A DNA stretch of 64,000 nt from Bythopirellula goksoeyrii (GTDB lineage Bacteria; Planctomycetota; Planctomycetia; Pirellulales; Lacipirellulaceae), in NCBI RefSeq assembly GCF_008065115.1, contig NZ_CP042913.1, positions 1,462,338 through 1,526,337 on the forward strand, in the 5' to 3' direction. Every line of letters starts with the position of its first letter. The stretch's first letter is position 1. Position numbers and translations under genes: made by a program. This document shows positions 21,638-50,492 of this stretch, in pieces. A model generated the notes under the pieces. It was not told the DNA's origin, searched no databases, and saw nothing but the letters and a program-made list of their open reading frames with translations.

Positions 21638-22068
21638 TTTCCTGTTCCTCAATTCTAGATAACAATCACGACTACCTTGCGACCTGATGCAATCGGATAG
21701 GAAGCACGAAATCGACGCGCCGATGATGAGTGGAAGTCCCAATCATGGAAAGGGCACGAAAATTAGCCGTACGATTCGTAGAGTAGTCCAAATCTTTCCA
21801 ATTAAAGTAGTTTACACGCTAGTGATGATTTATGGAACTGGCCCAAGCTCATGCCTTTACCTATCCTAACATCCCGGGGCTTTCCCTGCATCTTGCAAGT
21901 CGTGCTTTCCCCCATTTCTTTCGTCAATTGTGCAATTTGATCAAGGGACGAGTGGTGGAGAGAGGTGGGTTTTTGGCTGCAAGTGCCGAGAAGAAGCGTC
22001 TTCGACATTGTGGACTTACTGGAACAAGATCAGACGCTATACAGACATCAGCACTCTGCCCAACGAAG
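21638..22068. other. intergenic region upstream of the GH26 gene
   Basis: 431 bases with no convincing gene. It holds one copy of the locus operator at 21803-21814. The part from 21840 to 22068 shows no clear promoter, hairpin or gene fragment. Confidence 0.5.
21803..21814. promoter_or_regulatory. locus operator copy 1 (TAAAGTAGTTTA)
   Basis: An exact match to the 12-bp palindrome TMAASTASTTKA shared by eight sites in the window. It lies about 165 bases upstream of the GH26 mannanase, just upstream of a weak minus-strand promoter-like stretch. Confidence 0.65.
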
Positions 22069-22800
22069 TCATAGCCCGCTGAGGAGAGCAACATCGTTTG
22101 AATCGGTATCGACGATGATGATTCCTTCTTCCGTACTATCGAGATTGCCCAGCAACTCTCCTTTATTGTTCCAAGCAGAAGAGGTCCCAGCGCATAGGAC
22201 TCCATCAGCCATCCCCACTGCATTTACCATGAGCGTTGTCATCGAGTATCGGCTGGCAATTTCGCTGAGCCTCTTGCTTGCCTGTTCAACGCCCTTGCCG
22301 GTTTTGGCGACGCTGGCAAGATATATCTTTGCTCCTTGCTCGGCGGCGTGCTTGACGTGCGCTGCTATAGACAATTCGTAGCAGATCGCCAGAGCAATTC
22401 CCTGGTCTGCAATGGCCAAGCAAGTTGGAAGAGGGCCGCTGATGAAATAGGGTTCTTCGTCTGAATGTAGAAATGCCTTGGAATGTACCTGCCTTGACCT
22501 ACCGGGACGGAAGAGCAAAACGCTGATACGCAGACCGTCGTCGTGCTTTGTTGGAACACCGACTCCTATCGCCAGGTTGCCGTTTTCGCAAACAGTTTGA
22601 ATGGCGTCGAAACGGCTGTCGTCTACATCCAATGCCAATTTCTTTGCCAAGGAGGGTTCGTAGCCCGTTAACGAAAGCTCGGGGAACATGACAAGCTCGG
22701 CGCCGGAACCAGCAGCCCTCTCGACAAACGAGAGATGTCTGCTGAGATTACCAGCAATATCCCCAGAAATTGGCTTGTATTGAACGAGGGCGATTCTCAT
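22069..22800 (-). CDS. carbon-nitrogen hydrolase (nitrilase superfamily)
   Basis: 243 residues from the ATG at 22800. The catalytic triad of the superfamily is complete: Glu41 (FPELSLTGYEP), Lys108 (HSKAFL) and Cys140 (AICYELS). The family hydrolyses amides and nitriles; members include omega-amidases, N-carbamoyl hydrolases and apolipoprotein N-acyltransferase domains. There are no added domains and no signal peptide, so it is cytoplasmic. The substrate is unknown. It sits between the GH26 and haloperoxidase genes and has no obvious link to glycan breakdown. Confidence 0.9.
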   Translation of the reverse strand: MRIALVQYKPISGDIAGNLSRHLSFVERAAGSGAELVMFPELSLTGYEPSLAKKLALDVDDSRFDAIQTVCENGNLAIGVGVPTKHDDGLRISVLLFRPGRSRQVHSKAFLHSDEEPYFISGPLPTCLAIADQGIALAICYELSIAAHVKHAAEQGAKIYLASVAKTGKGVEQASKRLSEIASRYSMTTLMVNAVGMADGVLCAGTSSAWNNKGELLGNLDSTEEGIIIVDTDSNDVALLSGL

Positions 22801-22922
22801 AGAAATGCTAAAACTGCTTGACCGTCGGCCTGTGTTCAAGTATTATAGTTAATAGGTTACCTTACCCATACGACGCAACCTAGCGACGTTTCTCATCCAG
22901 CGGACACCGAGTTTTTTTGCCT

Positions 22923-22966
22923 AATGATGCCGACCGCTTTGGTCTTCTAATACCTGTGGCATCATT
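22923..22966. other. hairpin followed by T-rich tract in the gap 22801-23122
   Basis: AATGATGCC (22923-22931) pairs perfectly with GGCATCATT (22958-22966), with a small inner GACC/GGTC stem, and is followed at once by TCTTTTTT. This is the shape of a rho-independent terminator or a leader RNA reading rightwards. There is no obvious gene to its left on that strand. The rest of this 322-base gap has no gene. Confidence 0.4.
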
Positions 22967-23122
22967 TCTTTTTTACGGGTTAGTTCTGCGATCAATCTGT
23001 GATGATCACGGAAAAGAATCCCCCAAATTCCTGTTTGTGGCAATCAATTCAAGTGCCTCGGTATAGACCTAGCGGAAGGCGCCAGAAAAATGGCGAATGT
23101 TTAATATTGGACCCTTCCATAG

Positions 23123-27835: not shown

Positions 27836-28522
27836 CTAGCGACGTCGGCGAACCAAAGCAAACATTCCACACATTCCGAGCAAGGCAATGCTTGCCGGTT
27901 CTGGAACCAGCCGAATGTTGTCGACCCAGAATGAACCAGGTGCCGTGATAGCTCCGTCCCAATTGACTGCGATGTTTATTTGATTATAGCTGGAAGCCTT
28001 CCAACCAGCAGAATCTGTAATAATACCGCTAAAGTCCCAAGTAACTGTACGTGTGTCGGAGGCGCCAAAGTTATTTGGATCCCAATCACCGGGAGAGCCG
28101 GGATTGGATGTGTCATCGATTGGCGTGGTTTGAGCCCAGCCTAAGTCAGAATTGACAGCGATTTCCTTCATCTGCGCCCAACCGGTATTGGGGCTCCATT
28201 CACTAGTTGTCCAAGAAACGTCGGCCTTCAATTTCTTTTCAGGGAGCGCTTTGAGTACATCGTCAGTTAATGTCAATGCCCAATTGAAATTATTACCTGC
28301 TCCAGAAACTCCGGAATTAGAGAAAAGACTTAGCGCCTGTGAGCCTAGGGTGGCATGAATTGCACTATCAAAGCTGGTTGAAGTACCAGTTCCGTTGTTT
28401 ACAACCCAGCCGTCGTGGTCACCGGCAGCCCCCTCAAAATCTCCAATTACTTGAGCAAAGCTAGTGGTAGTCGAACACACCACTATGGCCACAACCAGTA
28501 AGCACATTTTTTTCAACATCAT
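27836..28522 (-). CDS. PEP-CTERM exoprotein with one DNIR-type beta-sandwich domain
   Basis: 228 residues from the ATG at 28522 (GGGAG upstream). A signal peptide ending in SFA is followed by one domain of about 165 residues of jelly-roll character, beginning with a 'DFEGAAGDHDGW' strand and ending with FWVDNIRL. VPEPAS, a hydrophobic stretch and RRRR follow. The same domain shape and ending appear twice each in the proteins at 30662 and 46028. It is probably a surface-attached sugar-binding protein (inference). The locus operator lies only 22 bases upstream of the start codon. Confidence 0.75.
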   Translation of the reverse strand: MMLKKMCLLVVAIVVCSTTTSFAQVIGDFEGAAGDHDGWVVNNGTGTSTSFDSAIHATLGSQALSLFSNSGVSGAGNNFNWALTLTDDVLKALPEKKLKADVSWTTSEWSPNTGWAQMKEIAVNSDLGWAQTTPIDDTSNPGSPGDWDPNNFGASDTRTVTWDFSGIITDSAGWKASSYNQINIAVNWDGAITAPGSFWVDNIRLVPEPASIALLGMCGMFALVRRRR

Positions 28523-28543
28523 TAGAGCTCTCCCATCAAAAAG

Positions 28544-28555
28544 TAAAGTACTTGA
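28544..28555. promoter_or_regulatory. locus operator copy 2 (TAAAGTACTTGA)
   Basis: An exact match to the shared palindrome, placed between a probable -10 (TAACAT on the minus strand, near 28574) and the ribosome site of the PEP-CTERM gene, where a bound protein would block transcription. A weaker site, TCAACTACTGCA (10 of 12), is at 28779-28790 in the same gap (28523-28840), which otherwise has no gene. Confidence 0.7.
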
Positions 28556-28840
28556 ATCGCGCATTCACATGTTAGACATCACATCATGAATACAACAAAC
28601 AGAAAAGAAGAAAAAGTTTACGAGCACGGCAGCTAAAATAAGCCACCCATAGTCTTCATGTTAGATTCCCTCCTCCTTTCGTGCAAACGTTTTTCTCAGT
28701 TTTGGGGTAAAAAAAGACGGATTTTCAATATTCAAGCGAAAAGGTACAGGCTGGAGTTTACAATCGAGCCATTCTTGTTCAACTACTGCAACACCCCGGC
28801 GTTATTCTTCAAAACTCCCCACTAAAATATTGTGAATGGG

Positions 28841-29263
28841 CTACAATTTGGGCACTTTGATCTCAAAAGGGGAATCATTGGTATCAACGACCAAGGGGGT
28901 CGTACTTCCTTTGGTGTATTCCAGGGGGATCAACGAATTCCCCTCCTCATCGGTGGCGTACAAAATCGAAACCTTGTGCTTTCCAGGGACAAGCCCATCG
29001 GCGTATTTATAACTCGTCACGTCTTTGAACTCTCCATTTGCACCAACAGAAACGGACCCAGGGCGGGGGTGGGCATCCCCAATGGGGGGAGCTTGTGAAT
29101 CAAAAACCAATTTCAGCTTACTGGCCTCAATCGGCGTACCATCTTCATACGTGATCTTGCCTTCAACTGGAACATAGTCGAACGGTGAATTCGATCCCCC
29201 ACAACCCTGCAGCACGATGAGTAGCGAAAGCAAGGCCCCACAGTTCTTCCAAGAAATCAACAT
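28841..29263 (-). CDS. small lipoprotein, module copy 1
   Basis: 140 residues from the ATG at 29263 (GGGTG upstream). A signal peptide ends in the lipobox LQGC. The mature domain of about 110 residues starts with YVPVEGKITYEDGTPIEA and has SYKYADGLVPGKHKVSI, the pattern of a transthyretin-like or carboxypeptidase-regulatory beta-sandwich common in planctomycete lipoproteins. It is a clear paralogue of the protein at 44272: FDYVPVEGKITYEDGTPI against YDYIPVTGSVTYEDGTPI, and the same IKVPK ending. It is the last gene of module copy 1, 112 bases after the pseudopilin gene. Confidence 0.8.
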   Translation of the reverse strand: MLISWKNCGALLSLLIVLQGCGGSNSPFDYVPVEGKITYEDGTPIEASKLKLVFDSQAPPIGDAHPRPGSVSVGANGEFKDVTSYKYADGLVPGKHKVSILYATDEEGNSLIPLEYTKGSTTPLVVDTNDSPFEIKVPKL

Positions 29264-29375
29264 GTAACACCCATAAAAACAAAAAGCTCTTATCCCATGA
29301 ACTTCAGCATATGATCTAATCATGGCGAGGGTTAAGGAACTCTTTCGCGACGAGTGACGTCGCCAGTAAAGTGAA

Positions 29376-30497
29376 TTAGTTATCGATGGAAACGCTTAGC
29401 CCGTCTTGGGAAAGATTGAGTCGTTGCCAAGCACGCAGATCTTCTTGCGGGTTCAAGTTGCCGCTAAAGCCAATAAAACCTATGCCAGTGGCATTGTTGT
29501 CAATAAAGTCGGAGATAAAACGAACGCTTGTATCAGCCATTGCCACGAAGGCTCCGCCAGGGTGCGAACTCCGCACGGTGGATTGAGCACTTTGGCCCCA
29601 GTCATCCGGATACATGCATTGAGCACGCAAAATTCCTTCACCTACTTCTGCTATGATCTCGTCCCCACGGTAGATGTCGTCGGAGCCTGGTTGGCAGGCA
29701 TTCACACCTTCATGGGCATTCCATGCGTGGCGGCAATGGAAGTTTGAACCACACATACTCATCGCCCACACACCACGACGATCTGACTCACTTAGACCTG
29801 CTCGCATTTCTGCCAGCATGATCGTGTTGGATGTACCGTCACTGATCCGTGAAATGCTGTAACCGAGATTATAGCTACCGATCCCTACGTTGTATTCAAT
29901 GAATGGAGAGATATCGTGGGTCGCAGTTCCCAAGACGGCATCAAACTCAGCTTTTAAAGGTAAGTACTGAAAAGCATTGTAACCATAGTTTAGTCGAGCC
30001 CAGCTACGGTCAGTCGCACCGGAAGGACCTCCTATGAATCGAGAGCCTTGGGCCCCATCGCTCGGGCAGAGAAATAGAGGGATCTCCTGGTCCACCAAGG
30101 GGGCGTTCACGATATCTTGCATTCTTGATGCGCCGGTGCTGGGAGAAAAGCGGATATCGAAGCGATCATGCAATGCTTGCTGTTCGATAAAGGGGAGGAT
30201 ATCCTTCGTCCAGGTCTCGAGCAAAGCATTGTCGGTACCGACAGGATTGACTCGAAAGTCGGGGCCTGGCGATCCTGCTGGTGCGGGAAAACTGCTATGC
30301 ACATCGTGATAGTTCTGCATGCCGATGGCGACGTTGCGGATGTTGTTTTGGCAGGAAGCACGTCGGGCTGATTCTCGCGCTGCCTGGACAGCGGGCAAGA
30401 GCAAAGCGACGAGTACGCCGATAATGGCGATCACCACCAATAGCTCTACCAATGTAAAGCCAGCAATGAAGTTCTCGCTCTTCTTGTGATATTTCAA
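29376..30497 (-). CDS. DUF1559 pseudopilin-like protein, module copy 1
   Basis: 373 residues. The N-terminus has [26 protein letters not shown], a standard prepilin cleavage and assembly helix, then RRASCQNNIRNVAIGMQNYH. The C-terminal motif is H-X9-D but followed by Thr instead of the usual Gly (HPGGAFVAMADTSVRF). A GVWAMSMCGSNFHCRH segment with paired Cys is shared only with the copy at 44768. The two are clear paralogues over their full length. It lies between the PEP-CTERM exoprotein and the lipoprotein of module copy 1. An assembly or display role is inferred. Confidence 0.87.
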   Translation of the reverse strand: MKYHKKSENFIAGFTLVELLVVIAIIGVLVALLLPAVQAARESARRASCQNNIRNVAIGMQNYHDVHSSFPAPAGSPGPDFRVNPVGTDNALLETWTKDILPFIEQQALHDRFDIRFSPSTGASRMQDIVNAPLVDQEIPLFLCPSDGAQGSRFIGGPSGATDRSWARLNYGYNAFQYLPLKAEFDAVLGTATHDISPFIEYNVGIGSYNLGYSISRISDGTSNTIMLAEMRAGLSESDRRGVWAMSMCGSNFHCRHAWNAHEGVNACQPGSDDIYRGDEIIAEVGEGILRAQCMYPDDWGQSAQSTVRSSHPGGAFVAMADTSVRFISDFIDNNATGIGFIGFSGNLNPQEDLRAWQRLNLSQDGLSVSIDN

Positions 30498-30661: not shown

Positions 30662-32344
30662 TTAAGCCGATCTACGGCGACTTGACCCCAGAAGCACGGA
30701 ACCGAACAAGAGGAGAATGCCTGTCGTTGGCTCAGGAACACCTACGCCAATGCCCAACAATGCCATATCGGCCTTGCTGAGAGCAACGCTGCTCTGCGTG
30801 GCGTCAACTCCGTAGGTGCGTTGCCAGGCCAGGAAATCTTTCCCGTCGCTGTCTCCATCTCCATCGGCATCGCCATTGGCATTAGCTCCATAGGCGTTCT
30901 GCCATACGACCAAGTCGTTCTCATCAACTTTTCCATCATTGTTGAAGTCAGCACTCAAGTCGACTTCGATAATTACACGGAAGTTGTCGATTTGGGCCAA
31001 CAAACCTCCATCCGAATTAAGGGCCAAGAAGACATTCAACTGATTGGTATCAGTCAATCCAACTTCGCTTAGAATCCCCAAATCGGTTGAAACATCGGTC
31101 ATGATGTTCGTGCCGATGATGTATTGGAACGTGTCCGTCGCATTCGCGTCAGGAGTACCAGCTAGTGCAGTACCTTCCGCCTGAAAAAAGCTCCCCGTGC
31201 CATCATTCACCGCTAGAGCAACCCGCATGAAGGCAGGCGCAGGCGAGAATGGGTCAACGGCATTACCATTAAACAAATCTTCGAAGTGTATATCAAAAGC
31301 AAAGGCCGAAGCACTATTAATCAACTCACGCAGTTCATCAATTCTGCCTTGAATACCGGAATCGATCACCGGGGCTTCAGGTGTCCCGATGTTGGAATTA
31401 AGCTCGATCGTGCTTCCCCAGTGGAAGGCAAAACCGTTTGGGAACAATCCAGGGTCGTTCTGACGGGTGTTATCGATTTGCAAGACACGGGTTCCGTCAG
31501 TGGCTGCAGGAGAATTGGCGACAATGGTATGCACATGCGAACCAGTATGGCCAGACGGTGGGTCGTCCATGCAGCCGAGACCGCAGTCGGACCAATCGTT
31601 GGAATAGTCAGTGGCCCCTACTTCCCAGGAGCTTATGGTGACTGGCACACTGGGTGGAGCAGGTACAAATCTCAAGTTGTCGAGATAGGCAATCGCCCCC
31701 AAGGGGGCTTCAGGGGTTCCACCTGCTGCGAAAACGTGTGAGCCACCCAAGAAGAACTGGAATACATCAGAGTCTTGCACGGGATTCAAGTCATTCATGT
31801 TAATGCGCAACGGAATCTGTGTTTCCTGCTCCCAGACATCTGCCGTCGCAAAGGCTTGCGTAAATGACGCATCGCTGTTGAGGGCGACATTCATCTGGAA
31901 TAAACCAACAAATGGGGGTCCTATAGGGTTGGAGACGTTGGCCCAAGAACTTGCGTCGAGTGTCAAATCGCCTTCTAAATACCAACCAGCAGGATTTGCT
32001 GCGACTGTGTTGAAGGCATCATACAGGCCGGTATCGATATCGGTGAAAGATGCGCTGAGCGAGACCCCCCATCCCGATCCCGAGTTCATTTCCAACGCCA
32101 AACTATTAGCCCCATTTGTAACACCAGTGGTCGATTGACTGTGGCTGATGTAGATGGAGTTTTCAGTTTCAGCCACGTAGTCGTTTTGCGTTGACCAATC
32201 ACTAATCCCCCCGACTCCCTCGAACGAGTCGAGCAGGATAGGATCAGGCAAGAACTGGCCAAAAGTATTCTCTGTGCTTAGGTAGGATGTGCACGCTACG
32301 GCGACTGCAAGAATGAATCTTGAAGTCATCAGAAAAGTTTTCAT
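30662..32344 (-). CDS. two-domain PEP-CTERM exoprotein with dockerin repeats, module copy 1
   Basis: 560 residues from the ATG at 32344, which has GGAG ten bases upstream. After the signal peptide there are two beta-sandwich domains, the first ending YLDNLRF and the second ending QIDNFRV. Two dockerin-like repeats follow (DFNNDGKVDENDLVVW and DADGDGDSDGKDFLAW), then VPEPTT, a hydrophobic stretch and RRR. The protein at 46028 has the same domain order and aligns throughout. The architecture suggests a secreted carbohydrate-binding protein held at the surface. Operator copies lie upstream at 32401 (partial) and 32631 (exact). Confidence 0.8.
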   Translation of the reverse strand: MKTFLMTSRFILAVAVACTSYLSTENTFGQFLPDPILLDSFEGVGGISDWSTQNDYVAETENSIYISHSQSTTGVTNGANSLALEMNSGSGWGVSLSASFTDIDTGLYDAFNTVAANPAGWYLEGDLTLDASSWANVSNPIGPPFVGLFQMNVALNSDASFTQAFATADVWEQETQIPLRINMNDLNPVQDSDVFQFFLGGSHVFAAGGTPEAPLGAIAYLDNLRFVPAPPSVPVTISSWEVGATDYSNDWSDCGLGCMDDPPSGHTGSHVHTIVANSPAATDGTRVLQIDNTRQNDPGLFPNGFAFHWGSTIELNSNIGTPEAPVIDSGIQGRIDELRELINSASAFAFDIHFEDLFNGNAVDPFSPAPAFMRVALAVNDGTGSFFQAEGTALAGTPDANATDTFQYIIGTNIMTDVSTDLGILSEVGLTDTNQLNVFLALNSDGGLLAQIDNFRVIIEVDLSADFNNDGKVDENDLVVWQNAYGANANGDADGDGDSDGKDFLAWQRTYGVDATQSSVALSKADMALLGIGVGVPEPTTGILLLFGSVLLGSSRRRSA

Positions 32345-32752
32345 AGATAGGTTTCTCCATTTCATTTGAAGTAGCTCCAGTTCTCAATGGTCCCTTGATG
32401 ACGATTACTTGAGGCTTTAACGAAGTGCATCAGACATGGGAATAGTACAGGTTTTCAAGGACCGTCGATCCTCTAGAGAAGTAAATTAGTCTTGGAATTG
32501 TGTATGTGAAAAGTAACCGCTGCTGAATCAAGAGCAAAGAAAAATAAGACTTATTGAAAGCGACATACCGACGATAAGCAAAAAGAACCAATTGAGGAAA
32601 ACAGTAGTCAATCCAGTTGGTCAACTACTTTACCTGTTTCAGTTTAATCTCCTAGCGGAATGGTTGTCTACTGTTTTGCGAACTCAAATCTGAGTTTTTT
32701 TACAATTGCCAGTGTTTGAGCTAAGTTTCCAGCAATCCCAAGCAGTCCATTG
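32345..32752. other. intergenic region upstream of module copy 1
   Basis: 408 bases, AT-rich, with no gene. It holds the exact operator at 32631-32642 and a partial one, ACGATTACTTGA (9 of 12), at 32401-32412. A large part is poly-purine/pyrimidine tract without further structure that I can see. Confidence 0.5.
32631..32642. promoter_or_regulatory. locus operator copy 3 (TCAACTACTTTA)
   Basis: An exact match to the shared palindrome, about 290 bases upstream of the module copy 1 exoprotein. That is far for a simple repressor site, but a partial site closer to the gene (32401-32412) could pair with it by looping. Confidence 0.6.
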
Positions 32753-38578: not shown

Positions 38579-40450
38579 ATGAGAACACTAGTAAACTTAA
38601 CTCTGTTGCTTGCTAATTGTTTATTCACTTGTCTTTCAGTGAAGGCTGCTGAATTTACAAAGTATCGTGACCAAGCCGATAAGTTGATCAGCCAGATGAC
38701 CCTGGCTGAGAAGATTGGCCAGATGACGCAGGCTGAGTTAAGCGCGTTGGGTGATCTGTCAGATGTTGCAGACCTCTATCTTGGATCTGTACTCTCGGGA
38801 GGTGGATCAGACCCTCAGGATGGCAATAGCCTTGAATCGTGGACAAACGCTGTGGAAGCATGTAAGCAGAAAGCTTTGGATACGCGATTGCGCATCCCCA
38901 TTCTCTACGGGATCGATTCGGTACATGGTCACGGCAACGTACTTGGAGCCGTGATTTTTCCTCACAACATTGGCTTGGGTTGTGCTCGCAACGCCGAGCT
39001 GGTAGAGCAGATAGGCCAAATCACGGCTTTGGAAGTTCGGGCTACAGGAATTAATTGGAGCTTTAGTCCGTGTATCACGGTTCCGCGTGACGATCGTTGG
39101 GGACGAACCTACGAGGGATATAGTGAATCCTCGCCGCTCGTCGCGAAGTTGGGAAAGGCGTCGATCGAGGGACTTCAAGGGCCCGACCTGCGAAATCCAG
39201 ATCACGTGCTGGCATGTGCCAAGCATTTCGTTGGTGACGGGGGAACCAGTCTGACAATGGCCAAGCATGAAGACTGGCCGGGATTTGGATCCGAAGCAAA
39301 ACCGATGTATGACCAAGGCGATACTGTGGTCGACGAAGAAGTGTTGCGTGCCGTGCACGTCTCGCCTTATCTGCTAGCGATCCAAGCGGGAGTCGGTTCA
39401 ATCATGCCCTCTTACAGCAGCTGGAATGGAGTCAAATGTTCGGCCAGCAAATACTTGCTGACGACGATGCTGAAAGAAGAACTTGGTTTTCAGGGATTTC
39501 TGATCTCAGATTACGACGCAATCGATCAGGTAGACCCCGACTACAAAACCGCCATCAAGAAGTGCATCAATGCTGGCATGGACATGGTGATGGTCCCTAA
39601 CAATTATCGCCAGTTTATCGAGTTGTTAACGGAGTTGGTCGAAGAAGGCAGCGTTCCAATGAGCCGCATCGACGACTCCGTCCGCAGGATCTTGCAAGTA
39701 AAAGCGGCAATGGGATTACTCGACGCCGAACCTGAAATTGAAGTCGACAAGTCGTTGCAAGAATCCTATGGATCCGCGGGACACCGAGAGGTGGCTCGGC
39801 AGGCCGTCAGAGAATCGCTGGTATTGCTTAAAAACAATAATCAAACCTTGCCACTTTCCAAGAAGTTGAAGCGTCTGCATCTCGTGGGCCGTGGTGCCGA
39901 TGACATTGGCATTCAATGTGGAGGTTGGACCATTGAATGGCAGGGACAAGCGGGCGAGGTAACCACGGGTGGAACCACGATTCTGGAAGGGATTCGACAG
40001 GCACTTGGCGACTCAGTAGAGATCACTCATGATCTTGATGGCGCAGGCTCGGCTGGAGCAGATGCCGTTGTCGTTATGGTCGGCGAGATGCCCTATGCCG
40101 AAGGACTCGGCGATGATCATGATCTAGAATTGAGCGAATCCGACCGTCAAGCGGTACTCTCAGCAAAAAAGTCAGGAGTGCCGATCGTGGTGGTTCTGCT
40201 TTCTGGCCGTCCCATGATTCTAGATACCACCCTCGAATTGGCCGATGCTTTTGTGGCTGCTTGGCTCCCTGGAACCGAAGGCGCCGGCATTGCGGACGTT
40301 CTCTTTGGAGACTTTGAGCCAACAGGTAAGCTATCTTTTACTTGGCCACGCGAGGTCGATCAGCATCCAATCAATCAAGGTGACCAAGAGTACGATCCCC
40401 TTTTTCCTTTCGGCTATGGTTTGAGCTACGCGAAGGATGCGGATCGGTAG
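38579..40450 (+). CDS. GH3 beta-glucosidase
   Basis: 623 residues with a signal peptide ending near residue 24. The (beta/alpha)8 domain contains [22 protein letters not shown] (Lys215-His216) and the nucleophile Asp311 in [11 protein letters not shown]. The C-terminal alpha/beta sandwich carries [10 protein letters not shown] and the general acid/base region around PYAEGLGD. Enzymes of this type release glucose from beta-glucan or gluco-manno-oligosaccharides. There is no third fibronectin-like domain, so it is a short-form member. It is convergent with the propeller protein gene, 8 bases away. Periplasmic, acting after the surface GH5 and GH26 enzymes. Confidence 0.95.
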
Positions 40451-42274: not shown

Positions 42275-43948
42275 CTACCCAGCTGTTGAAGCGAGCGGAG
42301 GGCGTCGTGGTCTGGTTTTTTTGGGCTGTTCGCTTTCACGGTTCCCGCGGCCACCGCGCCGCTGGAAAAGCTGCCTCATGCCTGCCAAGTATTCTTCCTT
42401 AGTTACTGCCCCATCACCATCGGTGTCGATTTGATCGAGCGCGTCGCGAAGGCGATCACCAATTTCCTCACCTGCTATTTGTCCGTCGCCGTCTTTGTCC
42501 TGTTGCCGGAAGAATTCTTCCGGATCAAAACGTCTGCGGCCCCCTCGCTCGTTCTCTTCAGCGGGCTCCTCTGCTGGGGCATTCTTCGCTGCTTCCTTGG
42601 CTTGTGCGATCGCAGTTTGCAAAGCACCAGTCGTATTCCCTTCGCCCGAAACGCAATAGAGTGATTTGCTTGAGCGGATAAAGAGCTCTCCATCGCAAAC
42701 GGCAGGCGTGGCACTGAAATCTTCTGTATCAGCAGTTACGCGGTTTACAGCAAGCTGAAGAAATTCGTCGTCGGCCTGAAGTACATAAATTGCTCCAGAA
42801 CGCGAGGTAAAGTAGATCAAATCACCAGCGATCACCGGCGACGCATAATCCTGCGCGCGCCCTCCACCGTCACGACCACCTTGGAGTCTGGCGCGATAGA
42901 TTTGCTCGCCACTTGCGGCATCGATGCACGTTGCCACGCCACCGTTAAATGTGTAAAGCCGTCCGTCGCGATAGACGGGAGTACCTATGCGACTGCTTTG
43001 GCGTCCTGACCAGATCACATGCGTGTCGGTCACATCGCCGTTGCCACCGGCGCGCACTGCAATTCCTCCACCACCACCGGGGCCCGATTCGATCGCGTAG
43101 ACAACGTCATCGTGCACGATCGGGCTGGAGCAAAAGGAGTTTGTAGAAAGCGCCTTGCAATACCAAAGCAGTTGTCCCGTGGCAGGATTGAATCCCCATA
43201 TTTCGTTTGGTACTGCCATCACCAGGTCTGTGCGATCGCTATTCGCAGGAACCAAAATTGGCGTCCCCCACACGCTGCCGAAACCGGCCGCTTCCTGTCG
43301 CCAGACTTCCTCGCCGGTTTCCGTGTCCAGAGCGACCATCGCTTCGCTCTCAGCGGTCGCCGGGACAATCAACAGATTATTGAAGAGAATCGGGCTGGAG
43401 GACGAACCCCAATTGCTTGCTCCAGATTCTGTGCCAACGCTCTGTTGCCACAACTGATTGCCGTCCATGTCGAATTTGACGACTCCCGTCTTGCCCAAGA
43501 AGGCATACACATAGTTCCCGTCAGATGTGGGAGTGTGTGATGCATATCCATGTTCGGCAAACATACCTCCGTATTCATCTTCTGGGAGATAGGGATCGAC
43601 AGTCTTGTCCCACAGCAAATTGCCAGTTTGGCGATCGTAACAAACGAGATGCCGTTTGAGCTTTGATTGATCGCCTGGTTCTGATTTGTCGAGTCCATAG
43701 CCCGACCAACAGGTGACAAAGACGCGCTGACCTACAACGATTGGAGACGACGAGCCAGGACCGGGTAATTCTGCTTTCCATTTGACAGAATCTTCGTCCC
43801 ATGAAATCGGACCGGGCTGACTCTCGCTAACAAAGCCATCTCCATTCGGACCCCGAAACCGCAACCAATCTGCCGCGTTAGATTCTAGACCTGTTGATAG
43901 AGAGACTATGAACAGGACAACCCATTGAATACTCAAGGATTTCGCCAT
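42275..43948 (-). CDS. PQQ-type beta-propeller protein with C-terminal EF-hands
   Basis: 557 residues from the ATG at 43948, which follows GGGAG. Eight propeller blades of the PQQ/BamB type start at about residue 30 (WLRFRGPNGDGF, RHLVCYDRQTGNLLW, MVALDTETGEEVW, CIDAASGEQIY). A C-terminal tail carries two EF-hands (DKDGDGQIAGEE and DTDGDGAVTKEE) and a basic end. The residues that bind PQQ in dehydrogenases are not evident, so it is more likely a binding or scaffold protein than a dehydrogenase. Operators at 44061 and 44114 lie over its promoter. Role in glycan use inferred from location only. Confidence 0.82.
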   Translation of the reverse strand: MAKSLSIQWVVLFIVSLSTGLESNAADWLRFRGPNGDGFVSESQPGPISWDEDSVKWKAELPGPGSSSPIVVGQRVFVTCWSGYGLDKSEPGDQSKLKRHLVCYDRQTGNLLWDKTVDPYLPEDEYGGMFAEHGYASHTPTSDGNYVYAFLGKTGVVKFDMDGNQLWQQSVGTESGASNWGSSSSPILFNNLLIVPATAESEAMVALDTETGEEVWRQEAAGFGSVWGTPILVPANSDRTDLVMAVPNEIWGFNPATGQLLWYCKALSTNSFCSSPIVHDDVVYAIESGPGGGGGIAVRAGGNGDVTDTHVIWSGRQSSRIGTPVYRDGRLYTFNGGVATCIDAASGEQIYRARLQGGRDGGGRAQDYASPVIAGDLIYFTSRSGAIYVLQADDEFLQLAVNRVTADTEDFSATPAVCDGELFIRSSKSLYCVSGEGNTTGALQTAIAQAKEAAKNAPAEEPAEENERGGRRRFDPEEFFRQQDKDGDGQIAGEEIGDRLRDALDQIDTDGDGAVTKEEYLAGMRQLFQRRGGRGNRESEQPKKTRPRRPPLASTAG

Positions 43949-44271
43949 AACTGTTACTCCCTTGCCAGCAAATAGAAGAATGAGGCCACGAGAATTCATC
44001 GCCAACCAATCGCTTGGCGAGGGTCTTCGCGCCGCAGTATCGACGCAAGCATATCGTTAGTCAAGTAGTTGGGGCGGCATCCCACGTGCATTGAAGAGGA
44101 TTCATTGCCGTGCTCAAGTAGTGTTCCAAGCCTGACTTAGCGAGATAGCTAACACGTTTCTGGCTTACTGATTCGAATCACGAAGCTTGCAAGAGTAGGC
44201 TGTTTGAGGTGAAAAAAACATTTCTGGGTAAATTGCGCAACTCTTGAAGTGGTGTGGTTAATCCCTGTGCA
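43949..44271. other. intergenic region upstream of the PQQ-type gene
   Basis: 323 bases with no gene. It contains the promoter with the operator at 44036-44072 and a weaker operator, TCAAGTAGTGTT (10 of 12), at 44114-44125, 53 bases away and so five helical turns upstream. Confidence 0.6.
44036..44072 (-). promoter_or_regulatory. promoter and operator copy 6 (TCAAGTAGTTGG, 11 of 12)
   Basis: On the minus strand there is TTGACT (44059-44064), a 17-base spacer and GATACT (44036-44041). The palindrome at 44061-44072 overlaps the -35, so binding would exclude RNA polymerase. Confidence 0.6.
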
Positions 44272-44700
44272 TCATGGTTTGGGGACTTTAATGGCTAGCG
44301 GAAGATCGGAAGTGCTGACAGTCAGAGGAGAATTGCCGGCTAGCGTATATTCTTTAGGAACCAAGAGTTTGCCGTCCTTGTCTGTAGCATAGAAAAAAGC
44401 AACACGATGTTTGCCGGGAATCAGGCCGTCTCCATATTTATAGCTTGTGACACAATCAAATTTACCATTGCTATCAATATCTGCCTGAGCAGGTCGCGGC
44501 CACATGTTCTTCACTTCGGGCGCATCCAGTGCGTAAAACTTCAACACGAATCCACCAGAAGGAATCGGCGTTCCGTCTTCATAGGTGACTGACCCAGTAA
44601 CAGGTATATAGTCATAGGGAGAAACCGAATCCCCGCAACCTCCGAGCAAGAGTAACAAAAAAGAAGCGACGAGCAACTTACTTGTAGAGGGCATACCCAT
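44272..44700 (-). CDS. small lipoprotein, module copy 2
   Basis: 142 residues from the ATG at 44700, chosen because AAGAAG lies just upstream and because longer starts would displace the signal peptide. The lipobox is LGGC. The mature domain has YDYIPVTGSVTYEDGTPIP, SYKYGDGLIPGKHRVAFFYATDKDG and ends in IKVPKP. It aligns over its whole length with the protein at 28841. It is the last gene of module copy 2, 67 bases after the pseudopilin gene. It probably sits in the outer membrane or at the surface; ligand unknown. Confidence 0.8.
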   Translation of the reverse strand: MGMPSTSKLLVASFLLLLLGGCGDSVSPYDYIPVTGSVTYEDGTPIPSGGFVLKFYALDAPEVKNMWPRPAQADIDSNGKFDCVTSYKYGDGLIPGKHRVAFFYATDKDGKLLVPKEYTLAGNSPLTVSTSDLPLAIKVPKP

Positions 44701-44767
44701 GATCTTCTTTCTAGGATCAGGCATCTTCGATAGAGATTCAGAAAGATCGACTAGTCGTCTCACGTAA

Positions 44768-45952
44768 TCATTCGATGACGCCGGTTGACAGGCCATCCGT
44801 CGAGACATTCAATCTCTGCCAAATTCCGAAGTTCTGTTGGAGTATGTCATTGGGACTGCTGCAGCCAATGCAAGCTCCGCCAACGATATTTCCAGAGTCA
44901 ATAAAATCACTGATGAACCGGACACTGGCATCAGCCATGGCGACAAAGGCACCGCCGACATGAACGCTACGGACTACCGATTCACCACTTGAATTGACTC
45001 CACTGTCCGGCATCATGCATTGCGATCGCAATGTTGACTCGCCTACGTCGGCAATAATGTCGGCTGCCCCCTGCACGTCGTCATCATGACCTCCGCAAGA
45101 GTTCACAGCTCCCAGCACATCAGACGCATGACGGCAATGGAAACTAGAGCCACACATTCCCATTGCCCACACTCCGCGACGGTCCCGGGGGCTGAGGCCA
45201 ACTCGCATCTCACCAATCATGATTGTATTGCTCAGCCCATCAGAAATCCGTTTCAGTGCATATCCTTCGGGACCTACTGGCCCCATGCCGACATTATAGT
45301 CGAGGAACTCGGCAAGTTTACTTCCACTTACTCCAAGATCTCCGGAAGCAATCTTGTTATTTTCGTTATTTCCCCAGTATTGATAAGCATTGAGGCCATA
45401 GTTTCCGCGGGCCCACTCTAGGTTGTTGATTCCGCCTACAAACGGATTCCCACTGCCATTGTCACTTGGACACAAGAATAGTGGGATCTCTGTTGCTATT
45501 TCTTCCACGTCATTGGGCGTCTTCGAGGCGGGATCCGTGATACGTCTTGAATCTGCGGCCGATGCGACGTTCCACTCCGCATCGATGCGATCATACAAGT
45601 TCGCCATTTCAACCTGTGGCAATAATTCGATCAACCAATTTGTGTAGAGGATATTGTCTGTTAGGGTGTTCTGCGCGGAAGCATTGGGAACCATGTAGGC
45701 GGGAGAAGGGAAAGTTTTTCTCGCCGATTCATAAGTCATCATCGCCAAAGCGATATTCTTAAGATTGTTTTGGCACTGAGTTCGACGAGCCGCTTCGCGA
45801 GCGGCTTGAACCGCGGGCAACAAGAGTGCTACCAGGACGCCGATGATAGCGATTACTACCAATAGTTCGACCAAGGTAAATCCAGGTCGGTAGGAGAAAA
45901 GGCGATTGCGACTCTTGCAAGGATCGCTAGTTATCAGTCTTGAAAAAATCAT
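44768..45952 (-). CDS. DUF1559 pseudopilin-like protein, module copy 2
   Basis: 394 residues from the ATG at 45952 (GGAG at ten bases); a TTG further upstream is less likely. [26 protein letters not shown] follows a basic leader of about 24 residues. The C-terminal motif is H-X9-D followed by Ala (HVGGAFVAMADASVRF), again not the usual Gly. It shares GVWAMGMCGSSFHCRHA and the FISDFID region with the copy at 29376. The two are more like each other than like the DUF1559 proteins at 12676 or 32753, which fits a duplication of the whole module. Confidence 0.87.
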   Translation of the reverse strand: MIFSRLITSDPCKSRNRLFSYRPGFTLVELLVVIAIIGVLVALLLPAVQAAREAARRTQCQNNLKNIALAMMTYESARKTFPSPAYMVPNASAQNTLTDNILYTNWLIELLPQVEMANLYDRIDAEWNVASAADSRRITDPASKTPNDVEEIATEIPLFLCPSDNGSGNPFVGGINNLEWARGNYGLNAYQYWGNNENNKIASGDLGVSGSKLAEFLDYNVGMGPVGPEGYALKRISDGLSNTIMIGEMRVGLSPRDRRGVWAMGMCGSSFHCRHASDVLGAVNSCGGHDDDVQGAADIIADVGESTLRSQCMMPDSGVNSSGESVVRSVHVGGAFVAMADASVRFISDFIDSGNIVGGACIGCSSPNDILQQNFGIWQRLNVSTDGLSTGVIE

Positions 45953-46027
45953 CCTATCCGTTCTCCAGCTCCATGGCTTAGACAAAGCATGAATCAGTGT
46001 CGATGCGTTCCGCGAACTCCGTGACGA

Positions 46028-47527
46028 TCATTTTCTGCGCCTGCAGGACATAAACACTGCAAACGCACCAAACGTCAGAAGGAATGATGTTGGCTCGGGA
46101 ACGGGAGAACTAGCTACCACTGGTGGCGCCCCGCCATATTGAGCCTGCCAGATCGCCAAATCACCCGAGTTGATTCCATTAGGGGATCCGCCGCGTTGCC
46201 AAACGAGGAAATCATTTCCGTCCACGTCTCCATCGTTATCAAAATCACCAGATTCACTCGAGATCTCACGAATAATCCGGAAGTTGTCAATCTGGTAAAT
46301 GCCGGCACCATCAGTATTGGAAGCAATACCAATTCGAAGGAAGTTCGTGCCCACGCTCAGGCCGGCCTCCTCCAGGCTTAATCCTGAGGTGTTGTCGATC
46401 ATTGAACTAAGAGGGATTGTCACCGTACCCGTCGTTCCAATTGGTGGACTCCCATTGAAACTTGATCCCTCAGCATCATAAAAAGTGCCCTGGTCATCGG
46501 AGAAATGGACACCAAATTTTGTAAAGGTTGGAGAATTGGGAAAAGGATCATCAAACCTTACGTCGAAAGCGACCGAAAGCCCTCCGTTCACTTTTCCGAC
46601 AATCTCGTCGATTAGGCCTTGAATTGTTGGATCGATGTCCTCAATTTCTGGATCTGGATTAGTATCAGAAGAAAGTACAAACTGACTTCCCCAAGTAAAA
46701 TTTGGCGTTGTATGAGATTGCCTATCAATTTGCAGAGATGAACTTCCGTCTGTAGCACCTAGTGTTGAAATTGAATGAATGTGACCAGGTTGCCCGAATC
46801 CATTGGTCCAATTTTCCAATTGCTCGTTCACTCCAGGGGTTCCAGGATCGTCTGGAGTTTCCCAAGAAAACAGAGTTATTTCTTCTAACTGAGGCAACGC
46901 TGTAAACCGAATATTGTCAACAAAATACTTCACGCCTTCCCCTCCCCCACCATTGACGTGATCGCTGTTCGATCCAATGTTCAATTGATAAAATGAAGAG
47001 TTTTGGGCAACGGGTAGCGAGCTCATAGGAATACTGATTGGAAAAGTACCGGTGAGCCCGTTCAAGTTTGGAGATACATTGAAAGCTTGGGGGAAATTGG
47101 GAGAATCGCTATTTGCCGCTACATTAATCGTGAAAAAATTGCCAGCGCTCGTTACGTTGGCAAAACTGTCCGGTGTTATCGAGACATCGAAATCGAGTGT
47201 GTACTGCTGGAGATCGGCCGCAACAGCATTGAAGGCGCCGTACACGTTCGTATCACCAGGCCCAACGCTTACGTTGACATCCCACCCAAATGTAGGTCCT
47301 GTCTCGACGGCCAGGCTCTGTAAGCCTTCCGTCGCTCCCATGGTGGAAGTGGCGACGCTAATGAAATCAGAGTTACTAAATCCGGTGGCCGCCCAATCGT
47401 CCAAGCCAGTCTCAAAAGAGTAAAGTAGTTGAGCGTGAGTTGTTGATGAAATCGAGGCAAATAACAGCCCGACAGCAATCACCGCTACTAATTTGCTAAA
47501 CAACCAATTCTTTGAATATGCCTGCAT
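46028..47527 (-). CDS. two-domain PEP-CTERM exoprotein with dockerin repeat, module copy 2
   Basis: 499 residues. A signal peptide ending in THA is followed by two beta-sandwich domains that match those of the protein at 30662. The first ends YFVDNIRF and the second ends QIDNFRI. One clear dockerin-like repeat follows (DFDNDGDVDGNDFLVW) with a second, decayed one (NSGDLAIWQAQYGG). The end is VPEPTS, a hydrophobic stretch and RRRK. It lies 75 bases upstream of the module copy 2 pseudopilin start. An exact copy of the operator lies inside its 5' coding region (47421-47432). Confidence 0.8.
   Translation of the reverse strand: MQAYSKNWLFSKLVAVIAVGLLFASISSTTHAQLLYSFETGLDDWAATGFSNSDFISVATSTMGATEGLQSLAVETGPTFGWDVNVSVGPGDTNVYGAFNAVAADLQQYTLDFDVSITPDSFANVTSAGNFFTINVAANSDSPNFPQAFNVSPNLNGLTGTFPISIPMSSLPVAQNSSFYQLNIGSNSDHVNGGGGEGVKYFVDNIRFTALPQLEEITLFSWETPDDPGTPGVNEQLENWTNGFGQPGHIHSISTLGATDGSSSLQIDRQSHTTPNFTWGSQFVLSSDTNPDPEIEDIDPTIQGLIDEIVGKVNGGLSVAFDVRFDDPFPNSPTFTKFGVHFSDDQGTFYDAEGSSFNGSPPIGTTGTVTIPLSSMIDNTSGLSLEEAGLSVGTNFLRIGIASNTDGAGIYQIDNFRIIREISSESGDFDNDGDVDGNDFLVWQRGGSPNGINSGDLAIWQAQYGGAPPVVASSPVPEPTSFLLTFGAFAVFMSCRRRK
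47421..47432. promoter_or_regulatory. operator-like site inside a coding region (TAAAGTAGTTGA)
   Basis: An exact match to the shared motif, 95 bases inside the module copy 2 exoprotein gene. A partial match, TAGTCTACTTGT (9 of 12), lies 54 bases before the start codon at 47581-47592. The internal copy may be a downstream roadblock or looping site, or a chance result of coding constraint. Confidence 0.45.
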
Positions 47528-47723: not shown

Positions 47724-48899
47724 CTAAATAGTTCGCCTGCGTCTGTCTGATGCTGCCAACACTGCGGCAATTCCTACGATCGCCAGCGAACTCGGTTCAG
47801 GTATCGTGGAATAACGAACCAAATCAATGTTTATCTGAATGTCGTTCATGTGGGACGCTAGGTTAAGACCACTAAACTGCACATTGCTACGATCGGTTAC
47901 GCCAGCCAACGGATACTTCAAATCGTAAAAGGTGCCATCGATTGGCAGTGTCAAATCCCCCGCTGCCTGGTAGGAGAAACCCGACCCCGTTTGATAATAG
48001 GCTTGCACGTCAACGGAGCCACCACCACCTGTGGGGTCCGTAGCAGAAACTCTATATGTCACAAAGTCATAATTTGAGAGATCCGTGAGTCGTTCATTAA
48101 AGGAACTGCCATTGAAAACAGTGCCGTTTCCATAGGCAATTGCTGCTCCGCTAGTGTCACCTACACCGTGATCACCTTGGTCCGTCCACTGTAAAGAACC
48201 AAGGCTGGCATTGTGCGAAAAACCAGTTTGGTTTTGGGCTCCATCATTTCCAATGATTGCACCTTGATCAAAGTTAGCGAACACGCCTTGCAAACCGTTG
48301 TCGGATGAACCAAGGTCATGAGTTGCTAAATCACGAACTGTCAGAGGTGTTCCAGCGCTTCGAACCTCTTCAACGGTCCAAACTAGATTGCCTTCACCCG
48401 CATGATCGCGGATGTTGAATCCGACAGTCCGGATGTAGACTTGCTGTTCGAACGTCAAGCCGGCTAAGGGTAGCTGATAAGTACTAACCCCGGGCGTGAC
48501 AGCTACATCGGGACCGAGTGAAACATAAGTGAAACCTAGTGATCCCTGGATATAGAACTGCACGTCGACATTTCCCAGGCCATTGTGCCCCAGATCAAAT
48601 TCAAGAAAATCCAAACCAGTTAAATCCAAACCGCCGCCAGCTGTTGAAGACTCAAATCGCCTGTTGGACCCATCGCTTATGGCTACATCTTCACCTGGCG
48701 CACCTATTTCGATGATTCTTAATTGGCCAGCAATGTTGTTGTCTAGAAGGACGTCGTTAGTGCCAAAGTTTTTCTTCCAATCTTCAATATTCGCTGCCCC
48801 ATCCCAAGTATAGAGAACGCTAGGCGACTGAGCCCAGGAACTGGAACAAGCTGCCAATGCAGCGACGAGAAATACTGCTGATAACCTGATGCGACTCAT
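47724..48899 (-). CDS. PEP-CTERM exoprotein with repeated beta-sandwich domains
   Basis: 391 residues from the ATG at 48899, which has GGAGGG upstream. After a signal peptide come two similar domains, each with a 'VDVQ(F/A)YYQ/YIQ-G-GF-Y' core (NVDVQFYIQGSLGFTY and SVDVQAYYQTGSGFSY), pointing to an internal duplication. The C-terminus is IPEPSS, a hydrophobic stretch and RRRR. There is no dockerin repeat. It is probably an exported, surface-held binding protein. Its promoter is bracketed by two operators, the most elaborate arrangement in the locus, so it may be tightly controlled. Confidence 0.75.
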   Translation of the reverse strand: MSRIRLSAVFLVAALAACSSSWAQSPSVLYTWDGAANIEDWKKNFGTNDVLLDNNIAGQLRIIEIGAPGEDVAISDGSNRRFESSTAGGGLDLTGLDFLEFDLGHNGLGNVDVQFYIQGSLGFTYVSLGPDVAVTPGVSTYQLPLAGLTFEQQVYIRTVGFNIRDHAGEGNLVWTVEEVRSAGTPLTVRDLATHDLGSSDNGLQGVFANFDQGAIIGNDGAQNQTGFSHNASLGSLQWTDQGDHGVGDTSGAAIAYGNGTVFNGSSFNERLTDLSNYDFVTYRVSATDPTGGGGSVDVQAYYQTGSGFSYQAAGDLTLPIDGTFYDLKYPLAGVTDRSNVQFSGLNLASHMNDIQINIDLVRYSTIPEPSSLAIVGIAAVLAASDRRRRTI

Positions 48900-49242
48900 T
48901 AGACACCCTCCAATAAGGAAAAAACCAGAAACGACACGCAGGTTGACCTGCACGTCAGGAAAAGCTTCATTTCAATAGAATTGCCGCCAAAACAGTGATT
49001 CAACTACTTGAACTGTCTCTATTCTACTCACCGTGCAACGGCCATGTCAACTAATTGAACTTTCGAATCAGATATTTTTTTCCGCAAAGCTGTAACATTT
49101 CACAATCAGACGCTAGGTGATTTGAGATAATCGATTCACCTCTTCCGGATGCATGCGTCCCCGATCAAGTCTTTGCAGGGTAAGCCGAATGTCTCCAGGA
49201 TGGAGCGGCCAAGAAGTTCGGTTCAGGGAGCATCCCGTTGTG
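48900..49242. other. intergenic region between LacI-type gene and PEP-CTERM gene
   Basis: 343 bases. It contains the operator-flanked promoter at 48999-49058. The part from 49110 to 49240 has no promoter or hairpin that I can identify. Confidence 0.5.
48999..49058 (-). promoter_or_regulatory. promoter flanked by two operator copies (7 and 8)
   Basis: On the minus strand there is TTGACA (49045-49050), an 18-base spacer and TAGAAT (49021-49026). One operator, TCAACTACTTGA (49000-49011, exact; 14-bp form 48999-49012), starts within a few bases of the transcript start. The other, TCAACTAATTGA (49047-49058, 11 of 12), overlaps the -35. The centres are 47 bases apart, about 4.5 helical turns. Confidence 0.7.
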
Positions 49243-50298
49243 TCAGGAATGCTGAGTCGAACCGCGCACTATCAACTCCGCACCTACCCGAACGGTGGTA
49301 GGTGGATTATCAGCGAAATCTCCGTCTAGTCGATCCAGCACAAGCTGGGCAGCCCGGCGGCCGATCTCTTTGGGACGCTGACGCATGGTAGTCAGTGGTG
49401 GTTGCAGGGCTGCCGCAAAATCGAGGTCTGCAAACCCTACGACCGAAAGATCTTCAGGAATACGGATGCCGAGACTGGCAGCAGCCTCGTAAATATAGAG
49501 GGCTTCATGATCCGTCACCGTGAAAACCGCTGTCGGTCGGGGATCCTGGGTGAGGATTTCTTCGGCGACTTCTACGCCATTGGAGCCCCATTGATTGAGT
49601 CGCCAGCTCTTGACTTTGACCCCTTTGAGGTCGGCAACGGCCTTCTCAAAGAACTCTCGACGGCGTACGGCCCATGCCTGCCAAGCCGTTTCACGAGAAG
49701 AAAAACAGGCGATGTTCTCATGGCCAAGTGAGATTAGGTGCTCTGCTACTGCTTTGGCAGATCGCTGCTCGTCAGTTTCAATTGAGTCGGCGATTTGATC
49801 TTCAGAGTACTCATGATCGATGACCACGACGGGTACTCGACGTTCGATAAGTTCGCGGAAATGGCCATAGTAGGCCACAGCGAAGGAGGGCCAGAGGATG
49901 AGGCCATCCACACGGCGATCAAGCAAGCGGCTGATTTGCTCCAGTCCCTGTTCATCCCCTTTTTCGAAGTGAGGGATCTCTTGGCAATCGCCCACCCAAA
50001 CCGTGATGGGGAGATAATCGGCTGCTGCCAGCACTAAGTGAATCCCCGCTAAGACATCCACCCAGAACGAGTCAAAAGGAGGAATCATGACGCCGATCAT
50101 CTTGGTACGGCCGGTTTGCATTCCATTGACCAACAGATTTCGCCGCCAACCGAGCTGGCGGGCCGCTTCCAAGACGCGCTGGCAAGTTTCCTCGCCAAAA
50201 CGGTCGCTTTCTCCCCGCAGGATTCGCGAGGCAGCACTCATGGAAACATTGGCCGCTTGGGCGACGTCTTTTAGTCGTGGGGCAGTAGAACCAGCCAT
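49243..50298 (-). CDS. LacI-family transcriptional regulator
   Basis: 351 residues from the ATG at 50298. An upstream TTG is possible but adds only unlike residues. The HTH is at about residues 9-29 (LKDVAQAANVSMSAASRILRG). The hinge region reads VNGMQTGRT where PurR has ARSLKVNHT. It therefore has Met60 in place of the Leu that usually enters the minor groove. The periplasmic-binding-like ligand domain runs from about 65 (MIGVMIPPF) to 345. It should sense a sugar and regulate the surrounding locus. It is divergent from GH130, with an operator copy between, suggesting autoregulation. It is the only regulator between 20 and 57 kb. Confidence 0.92.
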   Translation of the reverse strand: MAGSTAPRLKDVAQAANVSMSAASRILRGESDRFGEETCQRVLEAARQLGWRRNLLVNGMQTGRTKMIGVMIPPFDSFWVDVLAGIHLVLAAADYLPITVWVGDCQEIPHFEKGDEQGLEQISRLLDRRVDGLILWPSFAVAYYGHFRELIERRVPVVVIDHEYSEDQIADSIETDEQRSAKAVAEHLISLGHENIACFSSRETAWQAWAVRRREFFEKAVADLKGVKVKSWRLNQWGSNGVEVAEEILTQDPRPTAVFTVTDHEALYIYEAAASLGIRIPEDLSVVGFADLDFAAALQPPLTTMRQRPKEIGRRAAQLVLDRLDGDFADNPPTTVRVGAELIVRGSTQHS

Positions 50299-50480
50299 AT
50301 TATTCAAATCACCGTTTCTTCTTCCAACAAGGGAGACACTCAATCGCCATGATCCTCTGAAAGAGCCGACTTAGCAACTCCGCCGAAAACTTCGACCGGG
50401 GTGAGTGGTGGAGTCCATGATTTTTCGCCAGCCTACTCAGGCCCACCTTGGGTCAAGGAAAACTTCTCTCCAGGGCATGC

Positions 50481-50492
50481 TCAACTACTTGA
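50481..50492. promoter_or_regulatory. locus operator copy 9 (TCAACTACTTGA)
   Basis: An exact match to the shared palindrome, in the 298-base gap between the LacI-family gene and GH130. It lies 105 bases upstream of the GH130 start and its last bases overlap a possible -35, TTGAAG (50489-50494). It could control both the regulator and the GH130-SSS-GH5-GH113 run. Confidence 0.7.

Follow-up and report, generated by a model that had tools for sequence, protein, structure and literature searches.

A 12-bp palindrome that recurs across a putative mannan-utilisation locus of the planctomycete Bythopirellula goksoeyrii is very probably the operator of a LacI-family regulator encoded in the same locus (49243-50343, minus strand), and would thus define a local mannan regulon. 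The locus lies in a stretch of 64,000 nucleotides of contig NZ_CP042913.1, hereafter the window, to which positions refer unless stated otherwise. The motif, its clustering, its link to the regulator and its partial conservation were established by computation, as described below.

A palindrome clustered in one locus

The window contains eight exact copies of the palindrome, at 21803, 28544, 32621, 34547, 38363, 47421, 49000 and 50481. A first-pass annotation made from the sequence by eye had listed the same eight, with one position misread (32631 for 32621), and our scan likewise confirmed its one-mismatch sites at 44061 and 49047 and its two-mismatch sites at 28779 and 44114. Since the window holds 29 matches with at most two mismatches, where 100 shuffles gave 13.1 on average and never more than 22, a lone two-mismatch site carries little meaning.

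The whole genome (6.47 Mb, single contig) has 13 exact copies, of which 8 fall within the 28.7-kb stretch between 21.8 and 50.5 kb. The motif read backwards, which served as a control, has 18 copies genome-wide, so that the overall total is not raised and the placement alone is unusual. The binomial chance of such a placement is about 2e-16; however, because the motif was picked from the window itself, a test with a matrix trained on other genomes outweighs this figure. Scored with that matrix, the cluster contains 11 sites that reach 14 bits, 9 of which also reach 15 bits. In 400 kb of background, made up of 20 stretches of 20 kb each taken from across this genome, 3 and 1 sites reach these thresholds, which gives an expectation of 0.22 sites of at least 14 bits in a cluster-sized stretch. 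Outside the cluster, the window has no exact copy, in agreement with the first-pass annotation, and no matrix site of at least 14 bits, the top match there being that at 15511 (14.0 bits). The earlier estimate of about 0.06 exact copies per 64 kb was arithmetically right and agrees with the 5 copies found in about 6.44 Mb of genome outside the cluster. A genome scan that allowed up to one mismatch gave 129 places for the motif and 314 for the reversed control; it was too noisy and was dropped for the matrix.

A LacI-family regulator as the probable reader

The first-pass annotation had spoken of a purified regulator and named no gene. Our analysis points to the gene at 49243-50343, which stands back to back with a GH130 gene and shares with that divergent run the site at 50481 in between. 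LacI-family genes commonly carry a site of this kind upstream of themselves. Its product combines a LacI helix-turn-helix domain (PF00356, 1.9e-9) with a periplasmic-binding-protein-like sensor (Peripla_BP_3, PF13377, 1.1e-34), both over the Pfam cut-off; it comprises 366 amino acids as called from TTG, and the likely start is an internal ATG (MAGSTAPRLKDVAQ). The genome has four other LacI-type genes. Relatives of the regulator (E 1e-40, by which carriers are defined throughout) occur in 39 of 396 Pirellulales genomes, themselves a sample from a larger group, and a subgroup at 77-92% identity stands out. Among named genomes, a scan found 39 loci, some of which are not close relatives; for all loci, gene starts were taken from a crude longest-open-reading-frame caller. 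GH130 is divergent from lacI in 18 of 26 relative loci. On plasmids, the search for the regulator returned only LacI proteins below 60% identity.

A symmetric 18-bp expectation-maximisation search of 33 upstream regions of related lacI genes from other genomes recovers TGYTMAASTASTTKARCA, with a log-likelihood of 265 compared with 31-38 in 12 shuffled sets. The regions were drawn from the loci of both scans, one per place, leaving out the window's own genome, loci of at most 44% identity and locus L069, whose contig starts 55 bp before the match; some regions come from close relatives (for example, the Lacipirellula group) and are therefore not independent. Sites of at least 15 bits are present in 27 of the 33 regions, as scored by a model trained on the same 33. 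The operator is an even palindrome of 18 bp, within the 16-22 bp range of the LacI family; this symmetry is imposed by the model, and the exact sites are by themselves palindromic or nearly so. An alignment of five lacI/GH130 spacers was set aside, the spacers being too diverged to line up the operators.

The strict 18-mer is found in 14 of the 396 genomes, against 5 of 396 for its reversed control, and its distribution follows that of the regulator: 12 of 39 genomes with the regulator have it, compared with 2 of 357 without (Fisher p 1e-11). One of the exceptions, G222, is a 58% complete genome, and its site precedes a gene homologous to that of the mannan-binding exoprotein described below. 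Ten of the 15 strict 18-mer places are at most 350 bp from a lacI relative, on either side; within 1.5 kb of three that lie away from lacI (G154, G119, G173), nothing matches a window protein. The window's own genome contains no strict 18-mer, its cluster sites fitting the core better than the flanks. Taken together, the clustering, the de novo recovery upstream of related lacI genes and the tie to regulator carriers support the view that the motif behaves as an operator.

The centre of this operator is TA, while CG is typical of LacI-family operators: in the part of a family-wide survey consulted here, the central pair is CG in 1173 of 1303 factors, different in 49 and degenerate in 29 (PMC4052901). 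A link between absent hinge residues and an absent central CG has been published (PMC2329647, as far as consulted). The hinge Ala and hinge Leu are kept in none of 27 aligned regulators, which have Val/Ile and Met/Ile/Val instead; in the alignment, the regulator described here reads NLLVNGMQT where CcpA reads NAVARGLAS. Two single cases within the source genome follow the same pattern, in that the upstream palindrome is CG-centred for a LacI protein whose hinge is the usual one (NVFARGL) and TA-centred for a LacI paralogue with a changed hinge, 57% identical to the regulator. Two more LacI genes of this genome, L015 and L017, gave no palindrome in an upstream search, at a threshold at which the in-window gene was missed as well. 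The TA-centred operator with its changed hinge thus appears to be an uncommon but not unheard-of LacI variant, and adds a case in which TA replaces CG together with changed hinge residues.

The operator might instead be read mainly by another regulator, such as the 57% paralogue, or by both in competition. The recognition helix of the paralogue is nearly the same, and its gene, at 1405676-1406710 of the source genome (G000), adjoins GH26 and DUF1559 genes; upstream of this gene lies AGTGCAAGTAGTTGCACT, a related palindrome that is likewise centred on TA. However, the paralogue's own site, GCAASTASTTGC, differs at an outer position from the in-window TMAASTASTTKA, none of its four genome copies falls in the window, and it is upstream of the orthologues of the in-window regulator that the window motif is found. 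We therefore regard control by another regulator as unlikely. The related operator GCAASTASTTGC has no copy in the reversed control, and the paralogue may possibly head a sister regulon. In locus L100 (G000:C1:1395000-1414999) its gene is at 10677-11711 on the minus strand, next to GH26 and the DUF1559/small-protein genes.

Genes behind the putative operator

The operator between lacI and GH130 (TCAACTACTTGA, 50481-50492, exact, 23.5 bits) faces, on the plus strand, genes for a GH130 manno-oligosaccharide phosphorylase (50597-51670), a sodium:solute symporter (SSS; 51762-53636), a GH5-like enzyme (53663-55537) and a GH113 enzyme (55329-56783). As called, the last two reading frames overlap by about 200 bp, and the GH113 start is probably further downstream. 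On the other side of lacI, a second exact copy of TCAACTACTTGA (49000-49011, 21.2 bits) precedes the gene of the mannan-binding exoprotein (47724-48953, minus strand), which has a mannanase galactose-binding-like domain over the cut-off and a PEP-CTERM signal slightly below it. A one-mismatch operator (49047-49058, 14.8 bits) overlaps the -35 element of the same promoter and is not kept in B. polymerisocia. The minus-strand run continues with a surface glycan-binding-like exoprotein (46028-47527, below the Pfam cut-off), a DUF1559 pseudopilin (44768-45985) and, adjoining it, a small protein with a lipoprotein-like signal (44272-44808; such signals were judged by eye). The exact match at 47421-47432 (16.9 bits) is a doubtful operator located in the coding sequence of the glycan-binding-like exoprotein, at the end of its signal peptide (A-Q-L-L-Y). 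Further along, a PQQ-type beta-propeller protein with an EF-hand (42275-44005, minus strand) has two weak sites upstream, at 44061-44072 (one mismatch, 9.5 bits) and 44114-44125 (two mismatches, 12.1 bits).

Divergent genes also flank TCAAGTACTTGA (38363-38374, exact, 20.8 bits), which lies between GH5 (36873-38279, minus strand) and GH3 (38579-40450, plus strand), and TAAAGTACTTTA (34547-34558, exact, 21.3 bits), which separates an FG-GAP/UnbV_ASPIC repeat protein (34691-36886, plus strand) from a minus-strand run of a small lipoprotein-like protein (33961-34422), unlike the other two of its kind in the cluster, and a DUF1559 pseudopilin (32753-33901). Upstream of a PEP-CTERM exoprotein (30662-32365, minus strand) and the DUF1559 pseudopilin with an N-methylation motif behind it (29376-30497, minus strand) stands TCAACTACTTTA (32621-32632, exact, 21.6 bits). 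The small protein adjoining this pseudopilin (28841-29323, minus strand) is about 53% identical to that at 44272-44808. The gene of another PEP-CTERM exoprotein (27836-28564, minus strand) has upstream a site with a two-mismatch core and well-matching flanks (TGTTCAACTACTGCAACA, 28779-28790, 17 bits) and, in its leader, TAAAGTACTTGA (28544-28555, exact, 15.3 bits), the likely real start being 3' of this site. A weak two-mismatch site (22836-22847, 14.2 bits) lies between a carbon-nitrogen hydrolase gene and a DUF6851/PAP2 gene. Finally, TAAAGTAGTTTA (21803-21814, exact, 16.0 bits) is upstream of a GH26 enzyme with a CBM35 module (19988-21742, minus strand), recognised by Pfam and with a PEP-CTERM signal slightly below the cut-off. 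Of the eight exact sites, seven had been counted as intergenic; six are so by the reading-frame calls, while 28544 falls within the longest reading frame but upstream of the likely start, and 47421 is coding.

The Pfam assignments near the regulator include the mannan-active families GH26, GH130, GH113 and GH5, from which we infer that the cluster is a mannan-utilisation locus. Three DUF1559 genes with an N-methylation motif sit in runs behind operators, and two of these three adjoin homologous small lipoprotein-like proteins. These two small proteins (28841-29323 and 44272-44808) and a third in L100 (13536-14000) are homologous, and their genes come directly after DUF1559 genes, so that they look like DUF1559 partners; none of them has a Pfam match, and the two window copies have no NCBIfam match either. 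An extra DUF1559 gene (12676-13620) lies outside the motif cluster, and the matrix finds no operator there.

Conservation of these arrangements was followed in relatives. The best match of the mannan-binding exoprotein has the operator upstream in 7 of 7 genomes with a match (27 searched, E 1e-30); three further paralogues in G111 have no site within 1.5 kb upstream. A DUF1559 gene is present in 15 of 26 relative loci, and in 10 of these 15 it follows a same-direction operator of at least 15 bits, either behind exoprotein genes (L049, L050, L051, L057, L061, L063 and L064) or directly (L058, L060 and L065). In this count, sites inside the longest reading frame were taken as upstream in L050 (84 bp) and L065 (about 12 bp) and not in L070 (67 bp inside), and PEP-CTERM labels in relatives were assigned by a crude pattern of C-terminal letters. 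Genome G142 has a strict operator that lies between, and is shared by, homologues of two window exoproteins.

Position of the operator and mode of control

Promoter-like sequences were sought with an approximate sigma-70 matrix, and as the operator contains TTGA, part of any promoter/operator overlap is built in. The best promoters exceed the 95th percentile of random 220-bp stretches at 32621(-), 34547(-), 38363(-), 38363(+), 44061(-) and 49000(-), and do not exceed it at 21803, 28544, 28779, 34547(+), 47421 and 50481 (both strands). The clearest layout is that of the mannan-binding exoprotein gene, where a TTGACA-18-TAGAAT promoter directly precedes the site at 49000, placing the operator in the start region, centred about 20 bp past the start of the -10 element. 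B. polymerisocia retains both this promoter and this operator in a spacer of 55% identity. An operator just after its promoter suggests repression.

The regulator could instead be an activator, or act both ways, and the sites at 49047 and 44061, which lie upstream of or over the predicted -35, would fit such a role. However, at the best promoter a protein bound to the operator would block transcription, and most described LacI-family sugar regulators are repressors, so that activation seems improbable.

How far the proposed regulon reaches

Several observations weigh against a LacI-controlled regulon such as that described above. Six of the 33 lacI upstream regions are without a site (L062, L068, L070, L072, L039 and L034). 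In 27 relatives the counts of the exact 12-mer do not exceed those of the reversed control (53 vs 79 in 19 regulator carriers, 11 vs 46 in 8 non-carriers), so that only placement near lacI is informative. Within the cluster, the site at 47421 is really coding and has the poorest claim of all the exact ones to be an operator; at the equivalent place, locus L049 of B. polymerisocia has no site of at least 13 bits. The sites at 44061 and 44114 are weak by the matrix. The lacI/GH130 operator itself lacks a convincing sigma-70 promoter by the crude matrix. As to the hinge, RbsR, which is grouped with CcpA-like proteins of CG-centred operators, also has Met at the place of the hinge Leu (PMC2329647, as far as consulted). 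Elsewhere in the genome there are five exact sites, three of them inside genes as called. One of these three, at the 3' end of a sulfatase gene and without a clear target, reaches 24.9 bits, the top matrix score observed in this genome. Another exact site, near the 5' end within a GH32 gene (19.6 bits), one in a hexapeptide transferase gene and one far upstream of a sugar-transferase gene have no clear role either. Equal frequency of the motif near unrelated genes had been named beforehand as a refuting outcome; the outlying exact copies are only these five, although two of them score high and lack a clear target.

Orthologues of the outer enzymes give a similar picture. GH26 has a site of at least 12 bits in 4 of 17 genomes only (L139-L142) and lacks one in B. 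polymerisocia; for GH5, a search of 27 genomes yielded one orthologue, which has no site, so that as further proof of the regulon these two mostly failed. One might therefore suppose that regulation is confined to the core, namely lacI/GH130 and the run with the mannan-binding exoprotein and the pseudopilin, and that chance accounts for the sites near GH26, GH5/GH3 and the PEP-CTERM genes. Against this stand seven non-core sites of at least 15 bits in the cluster, six of them non-coding, compared with one in the 400 kb of background, as well as the operator shared by the two exoprotein homologues of G142; coincidence on this scale is quite improbable. Because the GH26 and GH5 sites are poorly conserved, the wide regulon of the source genome appears to be partly lineage-specific. 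The proposal of a common signal for enzymes, transporter, pseudopilins and exoproteins is thus supported, and the conservation upstream of orthologues that it predicts is strong for lacI, the mannan-binding exoprotein and the pseudopilin runs.

That the motif is merely a repeat, a terminator or an effect of composition, as its AT-rich palindromic nature and the genome totals not exceeding the reversed control might hint, is next to impossible given far fewer sites in background stretches and shuffles and its position upstream of the regulator across genera.

A model for mannan sensing

On the reading we favour, in which the LacI-family protein controls a local mannan regulon, a dimer would occupy TGYTMAASTASTTKARCA-like sites at or beside promoters when no inducer is present. 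It would repress its own gene together with the divergent GH130-SSS-GH5-GH113 run, the run of the mannan-binding exoprotein, glycan-binding-like protein, DUF1559 pseudopilin and small lipoprotein-like protein, and also GH26, GH5/GH3 and the further exoprotein runs. Relief would come from a short manno-oligosaccharide that is released from mannan, binds the periplasmic-binding-protein-like domain and frees the operators, so that the parts for uptake and digestion would be produced together.

This assigns a concrete candidate regulator and operator to a planctomycete polysaccharide locus, and places DUF1559 pseudopilins behind the same operator as mannan enzymes. The DUF1559 family (PF07596) counts 74 genes in Rhodopirellula baltica, where it is called a solute-binding family (PMC2754498), and 68 paralogues in Planctopirus limnophila (PMC10632474); neither source, in the parts consulted, establishes its function. 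It has been proposed that planctomycetes fish for polysaccharides with pili (PMC5394234, PMC12078418, each consulted in part), and with a candidate inducer and named genes this idea becomes testable. We offer, as a tentative extension that could well prove wrong, that DUF1559 proteins are glycan-specific pilin subunits, each set being induced by the regulator of one polysaccharide along with its surface-binding proteins and enzymes, and forming fibres that bind and pull in that polysaccharide; the operator described here would tie one such set to mannan.

Relation to known systems

CcpA of Bacillus is the best match among solved structures and has the same domain order and helix-turn-helix; it differs in being global and CG-centred and in the hinge given above. 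The half-site found here resembles that of the CcpA cre. A closer functional parallel is GlyR2 of Clostridium thermocellum, described as a mannobiose-responsive LacI-family repressor of mannanase genes with the motif GTAAnnTTAC and, at man5A, a likewise TA-centred site, GTAATATTAC (PMC8457756, PMC10766802). The likeness rests on published descriptions, and GlyR2 differs in phylum, in half-site, in acting on cellulosomal enzymes and in that the parts of these sources consulted name no pseudopilins. Among the local sugar regulons of the LacI family in RegPrecise, including that of ManR (mannose, mannosides), palindromic operators upstream of sugar genes are found as here, mostly with the CG centre noted above; a word search of the main text finds no mention of Planctomycetes (PMC4052901). 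Within the planctomycetes, PvmA of the pvm operon of Planctopirus limnophila is also a sugar switch, used as a rhamnose-inducible system, but it is discussed among DeoR-family regulators and responds to rhamnose/fucose rather than mannan, and the word 'operator' is absent from the text consulted (PMC11958385). Among the matches listed in our literature search, with subscription papers outside its reach, none has a title or abstract opening that describes a LacI regulon or an operator at a polysaccharide locus of a planctomycete, which is no proof of absence.

A related arrangement outside the cluster

The remaining outlying exact site, at genome position 1830333, lies upstream of another DUF1559 run, near an XylR-type AraC regulator. 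All 12 of its bases recur in B. polymerisocia, where the spacer region around them is 53% identical, and the site may be a distant member of the regulon or serve the local XylR-type regulator. The run itself (L101:3886-10621, and L092) comprises DUF1559, small-protein, dockerin and PEP-CTERM genes, lies close to the XylR-type regulator and is syntenic in B. polymerisocia, which suggests that a sugar regulator, DUF1559 proteins and exoproteins form a recurring unit.

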